NCBI GenBank assembly: GCA_903871805.1
Contig: CAIQIE010000056.1
Span: forward strand, 1-64,000
Direction of reading: 5' to 3'
DNA: 64,000 nucleotides
From: an uncultured Planctomycetaceae bacterium
GTDB taxonomy: Bacteria > Planctomycetota > Planctomycetia > Planctomycetales > Planctomycetaceae
How positions within the stretch are numbered: the first letter of the stretch is position 1; each line of letters begins with the position of its first letter. Both the position numbers and the translations under genes were made by a program. The notes beneath the pieces are model-generated. The model made no database searches. It was not told the origin of the DNA and saw only the letters and a program-made list of their open reading frames with translations. Positions 5,375-11,102 of the stretch are shown here, in pieces.

Positions 5375-7201
5375 ATGCGTTTTTATTTAGAGACTCGAGC
5401 GGCCAATTCCGGAGAAGTTTTGGAACCTCGTGAGCTAACCCCGGGAGTGCCGTTAATAATCGGCCGAGCTGACACCAGCGATATTGTGGTCGGTTCGGAC
5501 ATCCAGATTTCGCGGAACCATGCCCGGATTGTGATTGACAAAAACAGCGATCAACTCAGGGTGGAGTGCCTTGAGCAGGCTCGAAATCCCCTGATTCTGA
5601 ATGGTCGCCATCGCAGTTTGTGTCTAAAGCCAGGCAACTCTTTTCAAATCGGCGGGACGTACTTTCATTTTACGGCAGATGGATCTGATGCCGCTGGGAA
5701 GACATCCCTGTTTCTGCGGGATGACGCCGCTGAAGAGCCCCGCACGGCAGCAGGATTTGCTCCGATTGAGGCGACTTTTACATCGCTAGAGCTGAACGAG
5801 GTCCGATTCAGTGACTCCGCGAAGCAGATTGAACTTCTGGCAAAGCTTCCGGAGCGGATTGCCGCGACGATGTCTGAGCAGGATTTGGCGAGAAATCTGC
5901 TGGATCTTTACCTTGAAGGCATCCCGGAGGCAGCTGCCGTTTGCGTATTGAAGTTTAATTCGCACCACGTGGGTGCCGGAGGTGGAGAACTGGAGCCAGA
6001 TTGGATTGAAAAGCGAAGCCGGGTGGCCGGCGAAGCGCCTTTTGTCCCAAGCCGCCGGTTTGTGCGCCGAGCCCTTGAGGCAAGGACCACTGTTGTGCAT
6101 TACTTCGTGGATTCCAGTGATCAGAGTCAGTTTACGTTTGTTGGCGGATTTCGCTGGGCGTTTTGTGCACCAATTCCGGGTGACGCATGTCGTGGCTGGG
6201 CCACAGTCGTCACCGGTGAGGGCTCACGTTATGGCATCGCACTGGCAAGAAACGCGGCTCTGATGGGAGATCTCCGATTTGCAGAGTTGTTAAATTCGTT
6301 TATCGGCTCATTTCTCAGCAACCGTCAATTGCAGATGCAGCAATCAAAACTGCAATCATTTTTTTCCCGGAAGGTGATCCAGCAGCTAAAGCTCAATCAA
6401 TCAGATGCCATCGAACCACGCGAAGCTGAAGTCACGGTCTTAGTTGGGGATCTGCGGGGTTTTTCGTTGCAGGCCGAGCAGCTGCAGCATGATTTACCGA
6501 CGCTTCTGAACAGGGCCAGAAGTGCACTGAACTTGATGACCGGGCTGGTTGTAAAGCACAATGGAACGGTGGCTGATTTTCGAGGAGATGAAATTCTGGG
6601 CTTCTGGGGCTGGCCTTGCCGGGAAGAATCCGGTCCGATCCCGGCGTGTCGCGCGGCTCTGGCGATGATCGACTCCTTTGATGCCGCCAATTCCTCGCAC
6701 GATCAGTTGCTGGCGGGATCAAAAGCCGGATTTGGCATCGCTCATGGCCATGCGATGGCGGGCGAGATTGGCAACGATCACCTCGCAAAGATCGGTGTTT
6801 TTGGCCCAGTTGTGAATCTGGGAGCACGCCTTCAGGGCATGACGAAAATGTTTGGAATTTATCTCTGTGTCGATGAATCCACCGTTGCTGCACTGAAGCA
6901 GGACGCGGTCTCCGGACCATGGTTGTTTCGTCTGCTGGGACGTGTCCAACCCCACGGGATGTCCATTCCGGTTCGTGTTTACGAACTTCGTAAACACGAA
7001 CCGACCATGGAGGCGTTTTTCAATGATTTTACTGCGATGGCCTTGAGATTCATGCAGGGCCAGTGGTCCCTTGTTCGCTCTGCGCTGGAGCAGTTTCCGG
7101 AGGATGATGGCCCTGCAGCATTCTACCGCGGCCTGATGCTGAAATACCCTCAAACTCCTCCTTCGGGCTGGAATGGAGTTATCAGGCTGGACAGTAAATG
7201 A
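5375..7201 (+). CDS. FHA-domain class III adenylate/guanylate cyclase
   Basis: This 608-residue soluble protein has an N-terminal FHA phosphothreonine-binding domain (about residues 5-100; Gly30-Arg31 and SRNH at 46-49). The middle is GAF-like in length and composition (about 150-310). A class III nucleotide cyclase domain follows (about 345-540). Both metal-binding aspartates are present (Asp359 in VGDLRGFS and Asp405 in FRGDEI), as are the transition-state residues Asn481 and Arg485 in VNLGARL. The usual aspartate three residues before that asparagine, which helps select the base, is Pro478. cAMP versus cGMP therefore cannot be called. The gene converges on the cyclic-nucleotide-binding NOS gene 381 bases away, which suggests but does not prove a signalling link. 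The FHA domain implies input from a Ser/Thr kinase. The ATG at 5375 starts at the FHA domain. Confidence 0.9.
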   Translation: MRFYLETRAANSGEVLEPRELTPGVPLIIGRADTSDIVVGSDIQISRNHARIVIDKNSDQLRVECLEQARNPLILNGRHRSLCLKPGNSFQIGGTYFHFTADGSDAAGKTSLFLRDDAAEEPRTAAGFAPIEATFTSLELNEVRFSDSAKQIELLAKLPERIAATMSEQDLARNLLDLYLEGIPEAAAVCVLKFNSHHVGAGGGELEPDWIEKRSRVAGEAPFVPSRRFVRRALEARTTVVHYFVDSSDQSQFTFVGGFRWAFCAPIPGDACRGWATVVTGEGSRYGIALARNAALMGDLRFAELLNSFIGSFLSNRQLQMQQSKLQSFFSRKVIQQLKLNQSDAIEPREAEVTVLVGDLRGFSLQAEQLQHDLPTLLNRARSALNLMTGLVVKHNGTVADFRGDEILGFWGWPCREESGPIPACRAALAMIDSFDAANSSHDQLLAGSKAGFGIAHGHAMAGEIGNDHLAKIGVFGPVVNLGARLQGMTKMFGIYLCVDESTVAALKQDAVSGPWLFRLLGRVQPHGMSIPVRVYELRKHEPTMEAFFNDFTAMALRFMQGQWSLVRSALEQFPEDDGPAAFYRGLMLKYPQTPPSGWNGVIRLDSK

Positions 7202-7582: not shown

Positions 7583-10500
7583 TTAGGTAGATTCGGAGAC
7601 TGGGTCATTTTGCCATGAAAGGTCCTGCTCCCAGGGGATCGGCTGGCGATAAAAATTGGGTTTGAATTCAATCGGCTGCCACTTGTTTCCCTGCAGGTAT
7701 GCATTGGTTGTCGAAGCCGAAATGGGGGGCACGATCCAATGCCATTTGGCGTGGACAGGGCGTCCGGCTTTCTTCTCGTTCTCTTCGAACTCTTCAAAAG
7801 TCCTGGTGGAATAGTGATGATCCACAAGCTTCACTTTATGCGTTTCAAACGAAAACAGCACGGCGACGTTCAGTTCGACAAGTGCTCTGTCCTTCCAGAG
7901 CGAGCGGTCATTCTGCGTGTCGAGGCCCATCTTTCGGGCGATGACCGGAAGCATGTTGTACCGACCGGTGTCGCTCAGATTTCTCGCACCAATCTCCGTC
8001 CCCTGGTACCACCCGTTAAAAGGAATCGCCGGATAAACGATGCCTCCGGCGTCCATTTTCATCTCAGAGACTGCCGGCAATGCATACCACTTCAGTCCCA
8101 GTTCCGCAAACCAGGCAAAGTCTGGATGCTGCAGAGGTACTTCCAGTATCAGTTCGGAAGGAATTTCGCGGAAGACCGGTCGTCGGCCAGCGATCTGAAC
8201 AATCACCGGTAACAGATCAAACCGTGTCCGGGTCGCCGGCGGCTTCCAGCCAAGCGTTAAGGCCACGCGTGTCAGATCGACATTGGCTGGGTCACCCAGA
8301 ATCGTTCCATCGGAATTTGTGTAGCCCGCGTAACGAAAAAGTTGCGGGCTCCAGACTCGTGCCTGCAGTTTCTTCTCCGGCGGAAATACGGTCATGACGG
8401 CCTGAATTTCTCCCTTGTTCGTGGCCATTTCAATGTGTTCGAAGATGGCGTCAAACATCTCGTCCTCCGTGGTGACATGTCGGAAGTCCCGCACCTTCAG
8501 TCCCTGCCAGTGCAGGCGACCGACACATCGAATACTGTTTCGCCACGAAAGTCTGGCCGCAAAGGAAAGCTCCTCCAGGGTGTGTGTGTACGTTCCGACC
8601 TGCTGAAATTCCTGTTGCACTTCCCGCCAGCGATCCGGGAATCTGTCGGTCTTCCCTGTTTCCTCAAAAAACTGACTCAGATACTGCTCGGCTTCCTGTT
8701 CCGACGTCAGTGCAGCGGGACGAGCGTTAACCCCTGGACGACCAGAACCAGCGTCTTCCGCCCCTGCTCCGGCAAAACGCTGCGCCTTTTTGGTGACGGC
8801 CGGAGTGAAGATTTCCATTCGGATTTGCTGTTCTGCGACGCCTGCCTGTCGCAAATAGCCGCTGACTGTCTGCAGATAGGCTTCACCCGCACACAGGAAC
8901 CAGGTGGCCTCAGGATGCATCGCCACAAGATCACTCACCTCACTCTGCGTGATGCGACCTTCAGTGCGTGTAAAACGAACGCGCCAGGAAAACAGCGAGT
9001 CTCCCGCAGCAACCCGAGCGAATTCCTCGGTTGCAATCTGCTCACGGGGCGAGGAGACGGAATAGTCCAGGTGCAGGCGGTAGTCGCGTGTTTTTCCTTC
9101 CAGAGAGCGGCACATGGAAATTGCGGGAGTGATTCCAATTCCTCCCATCAGACAGACCACATCGTTTTGCTGATCGTCCGGCAGAAAGAAATTTCCGGAA
9201 GGCCTGGAAATTCGGAACAGTTCGCTGGGAGAATGTTTCTCAAACAACCAGCGAGAAAACAGTCCTCGCGGTTCGCGCTTGACTGTGATTTCATACCACG
9301 ACTGGTTGCTGCTGGCAGAAGAAAGTGTGTAGCTGCGCTGAACCCAGCGATTGGCGATTTTTCCCTGGACCACGATATGCTGACCTGGCAGGAATGGCAG
9401 ACATTCCCCGTGTCGAGGCTGAAAGCGAAACGCGTGAATATCCGGCGTGAGAGGAATGACGGAGATCAGACTTGCGGGAGTCCAGTCAGACCTTCCAAGC
9501 ATCTCGTTCACTGCGGGAATACAACCACCGCAAACTGTCGTCGCCCCCGTTTTTTCGGCAATACCATCGACTGTCAGACAGCCCTCTGTGATCACTGTTC
9601 GCAGGGCACCTCGGGTCACAGACATGCATGCACAGATTGTGTCGGTGTCTTCTGTGAGGGATGTTGTCTGTTGCTGTTCCAGTTCGCCGGTTTCACGAAA
9701 CAGTTCCAGTTGCCAGAGCCGAATGTCGGCACCATCCAGCAATTTACGGAAGGCAATCCCCAGGCTACCCCAGTCTCCTTCAGAATAGAGTCTGCAAATC
9801 CGCCCGGCCGCTGCTGTGATTTCTCGACGGACAGGACCGTCTGATGACTGATATTCAAAATGCTGAGCGTTCTCGGGGAGATCGCCGCTGACCACGGCAC
9901 AGAAAGTCTGAGCCCCCTGTATCCGAGTGGCAATAATTCGACGGCGATCATCCAGCAGGAATGTTGTTGTCAGGCATGGCTCACCGTTCAGATGACCACT
10001 GTGTCGAACAACGACGCCGTTGTGGCCACTGTGATAGCAATGGGCAAGCATTTGCATCATCGACTGCAGTGCCGGATTTCGCGCACTGGCCTTTAAGAAA
10101 TAGTCCCCGTTGAAGCTGAGGACTTCTGAGCGTGCCAATGAGGTGACCGTTGCACTTCTGGGTTCCTGCTGCATAACGGCCAATTCACCAAACAGATTCC
10201 CAGGGACAAGAAGAATCTGAGTTTTTTCGTCCTTGCCATTTCGAGTGACATGCAGCGACCCCGACAGCAGCAGGTAGACGCGATCACCAGGATCCCCTTC
10301 GGCAAAAATTTCCTGTCCCGCGTCATAGGTCTCGACACGGGAATCGAGGTCACAATCTCCGGGATTGATGAACTGGTAAACCGCCTCCTGCAATCTGTTG
10401 CGCCGATTTCGCTGAAATTCGGTTCCGCGGCGTTCAATCTGCTGCCGCAAATCGTTGTCGGAATTCAGACAATCCACCAGCTGAGCATAGGTAATCTCAA

Positions 10501-10828
10501 AAGCCTGCAGTGTGCCGATGCTGCGAACGCTGGCCGTTCGAGCTTTGGGCCCGTCCCGAAGAAATGCCTGTTCACCAAAGACCTCCCCGGCCTCCAGTCT
10601 GGCAAGCACCAGCTCCTCTTCATTCAGGCCCTGAACGAAGACCTGCCCAGAGCCCTCGATAATCAGGAACAACGAGTTGCCAGCATCGCCTTCCTGCAGA
10701 ATTAATTCAGCATCCGAAAACAACCGGATGTGACCTCGATCAGCAATTCGTTCGATCTCGTCGGCAGCAAACGACTGAAAAAAAGTGGTTAATCCGAGTA
10801 ACTGCTTCAGATTGAAAACGGTCTGCAT
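7583..10828 (-). CDS. nos: Self-sufficient nitric oxide synthase fused to two cyclic-nucleotide-binding domains
   Basis: This 1081-residue cytosolic protein is predicted to make NO and citrulline from arginine using its own reductase. Domains in order: cNMP-binding 1 (about 10-125; Glu86 and Arg97 in the phosphate-binding cassette); cNMP-binding 2 (about 160-250; FGELAV with Glu215, then EPRSA with Arg224); an unassigned region (about 255-390); a BFD-type [2Fe-2S] domain (Cys399, Cys401, Cys433, Cys436); an FNR-type reductase (about 448-680; RSYTLSS at 498-504 for FAD, GGIGITP from 562 for NAD(P)H); and a full NOS oxygenase domain (about 706-1070). The last has the haem ligand Cys768 in SWRNSIRCVGRLHW, the arginine-binding Glu946 in FNGWYQGTEIG, and WIVPPIS with Trp1031 at the pterin site. 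Most bacterial NOS proteins are oxygenase only. The ATG at 10828 follows a good AAAGGAA-type ribosome binding site. Confidence 0.96.
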   Translation of the reverse strand: MQTVFNLKQLLGLTTFFQSFAADEIERIADRGHIRLFSDAELILQEGDAGNSLFLIIEGSGQVFVQGLNEEELVLARLEAGEVFGEQAFLRDGPKARTASVRSIGTLQAFEITYAQLVDCLNSDNDLRQQIERRGTEFQRNRRNRLQEAVYQFINPGDCDLDSRVETYDAGQEIFAEGDPGDRVYLLLSGSLHVTRNGKDEKTQILLVPGNLFGELAVMQQEPRSATVTSLARSEVLSFNGDYFLKASARNPALQSMMQMLAHCYHSGHNGVVVRHSGHLNGEPCLTTTFLLDDRRRIIATRIQGAQTFCAVVSGDLPENAQHFEYQSSDGPVRREITAAAGRICRLYSEGDWGSLGIAFRKLLDGADIRLWQLELFRETGELEQQQTTSLTEDTDTICACMSVTRGALRTVITEGCLTVDGIAEKTGATTVCGGCIPAVNEMLGRSDWTPASLISVIPLTPDIHAFRFQPRHGECLPFLPGQHIVVQGKIANRWVQRSYTLSSASSNQSWYEITVKREPRGLFSRWLFEKHSPSELFRISRPSGNFFLPDDQQNDVVCLMGGIGITPAISMCRSLEGKTRDYRLHLDYSVSSPREQIATEEFARVAAGDSLFSWRVRFTRTEGRITQSEVSDLVAMHPEATWFLCAGEAYLQTVSGYLRQAGVAEQQIRMEIFTPAVTKKAQRFAGAGAEDAGSGRPGVNARPAALTSEQEAEQYLSQFFEETGKTDRFPDRWREVQQEFQQVGTYTHTLEELSFAARLSWRNSIRCVGRLHWQGLKVRDFRHVTTEDEMFDAIFEHIEMATNKGEIQAVMTVFPPEKKLQARVWSPQLFRYAGYTNSDGTILGDPANVDLTRVALTLGWKPPATRTRFDLLPVIVQIAGRRPVFREIPSELILEVPLQHPDFAWFAELGLKWYALPAVSEMKMDAGGIVYPAIPFNGWYQGTEIGARNLSDTGRYNMLPVIARKMGLDTQNDRSLWKDRALVELNVAVLFSFETHKVKLVDHHYSTRTFEEFEENEKKAGRPVHAKWHWIVPPISASTTNAYLQGNKWQPIEFKPNFYRQPIPWEQDLSWQNDPVSEST

Positions 10829-11102
10829 TCCAGTTCCTTTGATGTTTCAGTCCGAGAACCTCATGATGTCCACGCAGAAAAGCCGGGCTGTGTGTGACGA
10901 CATCCCAGCGCCCACATGCAGATCTTCCAACCTGCTCAGCAATCGCGGCGGCATCAGACGGATTTTCCAGAATCAGAAACACCACGGTTAAGCCCGTGGC
11001 GGAGCAATCAAAAACACTTTTCCATACTGTTTTGTTCAACACTTCAGCACGGTCTGATGGTGCCGTCGTTTTTATTGCCCAAAACTGCGTCCGCGTTGCC
11101 AT
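10740..11102 (-). other. Doubtful 120-codon frame upstream of and overlapping nos
   Basis: A minus-strand frame opening at the ATG at 11102 contains a coding-looking segment, LTVVFLILENPSDAAAIAEQ, with third-position composition like the neighbours. However, it would overlap the first 89 bases of the NOS gene out of frame, and it matches no family I recognise. It may be a gene remnant, a leader, or chance. The rest of the 10829-11309 gap shows only a short hairpin, ccacgg/ccgtgg, near 10980. Confidence 0.2.

Follow-up and report, generated by a model that had tools for sequence, protein, structure and literature searches.

A planctomycete nitric oxide synthase fused to its own reductase and to two putative cyclic-nucleotide sensor domains

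The window analysed here, a 64,000-nucleotide stretch of DNA from an uncultured Planctomycetaceae bacterium, encodes on its minus strand a protein of 1081 amino acids (7583..10828) that joins two cyclic-nucleotide-binding (cNMP) domains, a linker, a BFD-like [2Fe-2S] domain, an FAD-binding domain, an NAD(P)H-binding domain and, last, a nitric oxide synthase (NOS) oxygenase. The catalytic residues tested are all present. We propose that this is a self-sufficient NOS whose supply of electrons to the haem is gated by the N-terminal cNMP domains binding cAMP or cGMP, a reading favoured by the sequence comparisons below and to which we assign a probability of roughly 60%. Self-sufficient NOS with an Fe-S/FAD reductase (scNOS) is already known; the new element is the pair of cyclic-nucleotide sensor domains on it. 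No description of a NOS with cyclic-nucleotide-binding domains was found in the open-licence literature.

Domains of the window protein

The gene is defined by its open reading frame and translation, by Pfam matches and by the matching chain in two distant relatives (L005 and L044, below). A Shine-Dalgarno-like AAAGGA (10835..10840, minus strand), seen in the sequence, lies 6 nt ahead of the ATG at 10828. An earlier note on this DNA had given exactly these coordinates without the strand, and the layout it proposed, a NOS with its own reductase and two cyclic-nucleotide domains, is borne out by domain searches with Pfam and NCBIfam. No membrane segment is indicated by hydropathy. A C-terminal FMN flavodoxin plus FAD reductase is absent from the Pfam matches, the chain ending 15 amino acids past the oxygenase match. 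The full-length AlphaFold model is poor (mean pLDDT 62), so that contacts between domains are unreadable in it.

PF00027 (cNMP_binding) matches the protein in two stretches (2e-36), residues 36–125 (10454..10723, minus strand) and 166–250 (10079..10333, minus strand). The phosphate-binding cassette of the first is FGEQAFLRDGPKARTAS, with Glu86 and Arg97, and that of the second is FGELAVMQQEPRSAT, a canonical FGELA...PRSATV with Glu215 and Arg224. In the alignment both domains thus combine the fold with the cassette Glu (ribose) and Arg (phosphate), in line with the conserved Glu and Arg that the earlier note had read from the letters alone. The signature of cyclic-nucleotide binding is FGE...R-[TSNQA]-A-[ST]. 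By sequence, the best match of the tandem unit among solved structures is to cGMP-dependent protein kinases.

The linker (residues 271–385; 9674..10018, minus strand) is conserved in every relative in the alignment and is probably related to Rubredoxin_C. It stands directly ahead of the BFD domain, the place that Rubredoxin_C takes in NirB; PF18267 matches it in two of nine members (best 5e-5), and hhalign comparison of its profile with the middle region of three NirB sequences gave P 2e-4 at a probability of 46%. Against solved structures the linker profile found no sequence match. The linker is likely a piece of NirB ancestry, and from its position it may couple the sensor to the Fe-S domain.

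The BFD-like domain (residues 397–445; 9494..9640, minus strand) is matched by PF04324 (Fer2_BFD, 7e-11), and its four cysteines, Cys399, 401, 433 and 436, are all conserved. PF00970 (FAD_binding_6, 2e-10) matches residues 453–547 (9188..9472, minus strand), where RSYTLSS and GLFSRWL are found. The NAD(P)H-binding domain (residues 556–676; 8801..9163, minus strand) carries the conserved GGIGITP at residues 562–568 and Cys646. Pfam PF00175 does not match this half of the protein. Several NCBIfam reductase models, among them flavohaemoprotein and BenC, cover about 452–682, with alignment through residue 678, yet stay below their own cut-offs; the protein thus has an NAD(P)H half, one that is a member of none of these families. 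The four cysteines and the FAD and NAD(P)H motifs agree with what the earlier note had described.

The oxygenase (residues 711–1066; 7631..8698, minus strand) is matched by PF02898 (NO_synthase) at 8e-148 over 355 of 362 profile positions, and by the solved bacterial NOS 2flq at 4e-118. It has the haem ligand Cys768, the substrate-binding Glu945 and the pterin-site Trp1029 and Trp1031 of a full oxygenase. Cys768 had been assigned correctly before, while the substrate residue, previously given as Glu946, is Glu945 in our residue table. At the Val/Ile switch all BFD-type NOS sampled have Val (Val920 in the window protein), as do animal enzymes; Bacillus and syNOS-like enzymes have Ile. In animal NOS, Val at this position goes with efficient release of NO (2022 review of bacterial NO formation), and rapid NO release would be expected of the window enzyme on this ground.

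The scNOS of Sorangium cellulosum (Agapie et al. 2009) is, in the excerpt of PMC3701330 that describes it, a single chain with an N-terminal [2Fe-2S]/FAD/NAD reductase and a C-terminal oxygenase. The window protein resembles it in having a reductase with [2Fe-2S], FAD and NAD(P)H motifs fused N-terminal to the oxygenase, an order inverted with respect to animal NOS, and differs from scNOS, known here by that description only, in the two cNMP domains added ahead of the reductase. The Fe-S/FAD reductase ahead of the oxygenase and the absence of an FMN domain support the suggestion, made earlier for this gene, that the enzyme is self-sufficient in the manner of scNOS.

Relatives and the exchange of sensor and output

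NOS was found in 4 of 392 genomes of the phylum and in 5 of 170 of the order, all five in one genus; because of this rarity, conservation rests on few sequences. The same chain is present in a planctomycete of another class (G171, locus L005), 47% identical over 856 amino acids and 32% in the cNMP part. A frame change lies inside the second cNMP domain of this gene (L005:9490-9530) and is probably a sequencing error; the cNMP pockets are intact as far as the frameshift permits reading. A genome of the cyanobacterial phylum (G557) encodes the full chain as well, in 1088 amino acids (L044:3358-6624), with identities to the window protein of 33% (cNMP), 39% (reductase) and 54% (NOS); its two cassettes, FGEQALLPGRPGRRNAS and FGELALIGQKPRQAT, are intact. 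Among 18 genomes of its class it is the only one with a NOS. Recurrence of the full chain in a second class and a second phylum, with modules 32–58% identical, excludes chance. An assembly chimera was considered and rejected, as the same chain is present in other phyla.

In a congener (G489), cNMP-linker-BFD-FAD-NAD closes one contig and NOS opens another. The two ends share 16 bases and the reading frame continues across them, from which we infer a one-cNMP version of about 940 amino acids; its single cassette, FGELALIHNAPRAAT, is intact.

A protein-only scan of the genome contigs found no relative. An alignment scan of the same contigs gave L017–L023, of which L017 is on the same contig as L005 and L020–L023 match in a cNMP domain only. 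Viral contigs contained no relative of the window protein. On plasmids, the matches listed belong either to a separate NOS oxygenase or to an unrelated reductase, and none reaches 80% coverage of the chain. In the Pseudomonadota sample 2 of 398 genomes have NOS; the frames, 605 and 447 amino acids long, leave no room for the full chain. NOS genes that encode the oxygenase only were seen immediately next to a radical SAM gene in a planctomycete, in a pseudomonadote and on a plasmid (L003:1366-4058, L062:77-2682 and Jannaschia plasmid NZ_CP083542.1), with a weak B12-binding match in L062; the two genes are possibly a biosynthetic pair.

Two cyanobacterial proteins (L045:3097-6762 and L046:2898-6542) have the order linker-BFD-FAD-NAD-NOS, with reductases 33–35% and NOS domains about 51% identical to those of the window protein. 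They differ from it in the sensor slot, where cNMP domains are absent and a weakly NmrA-like region is found together with two canonical EF-hand loops, DLDQSGQIDAEE and DTDKSGTIDFEE. These proteins are candidates for a Ca2+-gated NOS that works without calmodulin. The excerpt of PMC3701330 reports scNOS-like proteins from Microcoleus vaginatus and Crinalium epipsammum and makes no mention of EF-hands in them; L045 and L046 have the same layout as those proteins, in the module order of the window protein.

The output can differ too. Proteins of two Thiomargarita assemblies (L018:5929-8052 and L019:2609-4744) and of the congener G492 (L077:1574-4114) share the sensor-linker-reductase unit, cNMP-linker-BFD-FAD-NAD, at 27–35% identity with the window protein. 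Their output is a membrane C-terminus with hydrophobic segments and paired histidines in place of NOS. A cytochrome-b-like reading of this membrane domain was made by eye, and no Pfam family backs it. Immediately after the cNMP-reductase-membrane gene of L018 comes a gene for a multihaem cytochrome c. The reductase tree is too weakly supported to tell how many times the output changed, and a claim on the frequency of output swaps was dropped for this reason. Judged by these sequences, there is a reductase unit on which both the sensor and the output can be exchanged.

Gating of the electron supply and its alternatives

From the domains present and the description of scNOS, electrons would enter from NAD(P)H at the FAD and move through the BFD [2Fe-2S] cluster to the NOS haem, and neither FMN nor a partner reductase would be needed. 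The oxygenase would convert arginine to citrulline and NO in two steps. The two N-terminal domains would bind cAMP or cGMP, and binding, via the linker beside the Fe-S domain, would alter the rate at which electrons arrive at the haem, a control akin to that by Ca2+/calmodulin in animal NOS. Catalysis, ligand binding and the direction of control are all predictions from sequence. Since the cNMP domains adjoin the linker and the Fe-S domain, at the chain end far from the oxygenase, they are more likely to control the delivery of electrons than the haem pocket.

The exchange of modules bears on this proposal. Gating gains in likelihood from the EF-hands that replace the cNMP domains in the same slot and from the attachment of the cNMP-reductase unit to a different output domain. 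Sensor gating of the electron supply is the best explanation for a single reductase with exchangeable sensors and outputs. With cNMP domains in distant bacteria and a calcium sensor in the same slot in cyanobacteria, switching of NO production by second messengers within the enzyme is probable. The EF-hand swap and the precedent of the C2 domain of syNOS (below) both support a sensor role.

The cNMP-fold domains might instead be structural, serving dimerisation or docking of the reductase and no longer responding to a ligand; NO output would then depend solely on substrate, O2 and NAD(P)H. This explanation draws on a divergent version in four congeners (L013, L014, L015 and L078), in which the ribose-binding Glu is lost from both pockets and the fold remains recognisable; the first cassette of these proteins is IGAQ, the second FGD or FGQ. 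The Glu is lost in Thiomargarita as well (FGV and FGL). cNMP domains can thus persist without a normal pocket. In the NOS tree L013–L015 group together on a long branch (1.15), and L078, which ends at a contig edge ahead of the NOS part, matches them in sequence. Against a purely structural role, FGE and the cassette Arg are kept in every domain of the window protein, L044 and G489, while overall identity to the domains of the window protein is only about 33%. This retention points to constraint on the pocket; over its readable part L005 shows the same, and the degenerate clade sits on a very long branch. We consider the structural explanation unlikely, while taking it more seriously than the other alternatives. 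The loss of Glu in L013–L015 and L078 would represent decay or a change of the sensor. One genus holds both pocket-keeping and pocket-losing members; gating is then not universal and, if real, would belong to some members only.

The CRP/FNR fold takes other ligands in some proteins, for example haem, 2-oxoglutarate or another nucleotide. The domains of the window protein might in the same way sense something other than a 3',5'-cyclic nucleotide, and the ligand cannot be fixed from sequence. The cassettes nevertheless carry the cyclic-nucleotide signature, and among solved structures the nearest are cyclic-nucleotide-dependent kinases, which makes a non-canonical ligand quite improbable. Least probable is a NOS by fold whose product is not free NO, acting as an uncoupled superoxide/NADPH oxidase or in biosynthetic nitrosation or nitration: bacterial NOS can serve biosynthesis, and oxygenase-only NOS have radical SAM partners, but no biosynthetic neighbour genes were seen around the window gene, its catalytic residues are complete and its Val920 is of the animal type.

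The convergent cyclase and known NOS systems

Convergent to the NOS gene lies a plus-strand gene (5375..7201) for an FHA domain and a class III nucleotidyl cyclase. Its best solved match is Cya2 of Synechocystis (2w01, 1e-12), and the alignment places both metal-binding Asp, the VNL..R pair and an Asp at the Glu488 position, that is, the two metal Asp, the transition-state Asn and Arg and the acidic purine residue of a class III guanylyl cyclase; Pfam PF00211 gives no match. The purine-specifying residue is Lys in adenylyl cyclases and Glu in guanylyl cyclases. Replacement of Glu488 by Lys in Cya2 changes specificity from GTP to ATP (PMC5995499). The neighbour, most like Cya2, is predicted to be guanylyl-cyclase-like. 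The only other cyclase found in the source genome is a paralogous FHA-cyclase with the same Asp (L050, C280:3864-5564).

Of 18 genomes in the genus, 17 contain FHA-cyclase relatives, whether or not they have a NOS, and these cyclases lie apart from NOS where the NOS contigs are readable; the idea of a conserved cyclase-NOS pair was rejected accordingly. A functional link between the two neighbours is speculative. With convergent genes, a cyclase present regardless of NOS and the pairing in no relative, the notion that this cyclase is the source of cGMP carries low weight. It is distinctly doubtful that the adjacent FHA-cyclase makes cGMP that gates NO production inside one polypeptide, as one case of sensors and outputs exchanged among second-messenger-gated reductases.

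Bacterial NOS were divided into oxygenase-only and globin-containing kinds in the 2022 review, and a 2026 paper mentions some prokaryotic NOSs with auxiliary domains, giving no further detail. Compared with animal NOS, the window protein shares the oxygenase fold, the Val at the switch and, as proposed here, second-messenger allosteric control of the electron supply. Animal NOS differs in using Ca2+/calmodulin and a C-terminal FMN and CPR-type reductase, where the window protein has Fe-S/FAD at the N-terminus and lacks an FMN domain. Second-messenger control of NOS has been described for the animal enzymes (calmodulin) and for syNOS (C2 domain), both via Ca2+. In Synechococcus syNOS a Ca2+-responsive N-terminal C2 domain controls electron transfer (PMC6104048, PMC12922734). 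syNOS is, like the window protein, multidomain and self-sufficient with an N-terminal sensor; it differs in its diflavin (FMN/FAD) reductase placed after the oxygenase, its globins and its lack of BFD and cNMP domains, and syNOS-like sequences in our sample have Ile where the window protein has Val.

That sensors and outputs change on one and the same reductase suggests that it is a gated electron-transfer unit of a general kind. If the gating reading is true, control of the electron supply to NOS by a sensor evolved on more than one occasion and with different messengers, in the cNMP form and in its EF-hand sister form, and bacteria would possess a direct link from cyclic nucleotide to NO in a one-protein system. 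Were the messenger cGMP, to which the neighbouring guanylyl-cyclase-like gene is a weak pointer, this would be a route from cGMP to NO in a prokaryote, opposite in direction to the animal route from NO to cGMP.
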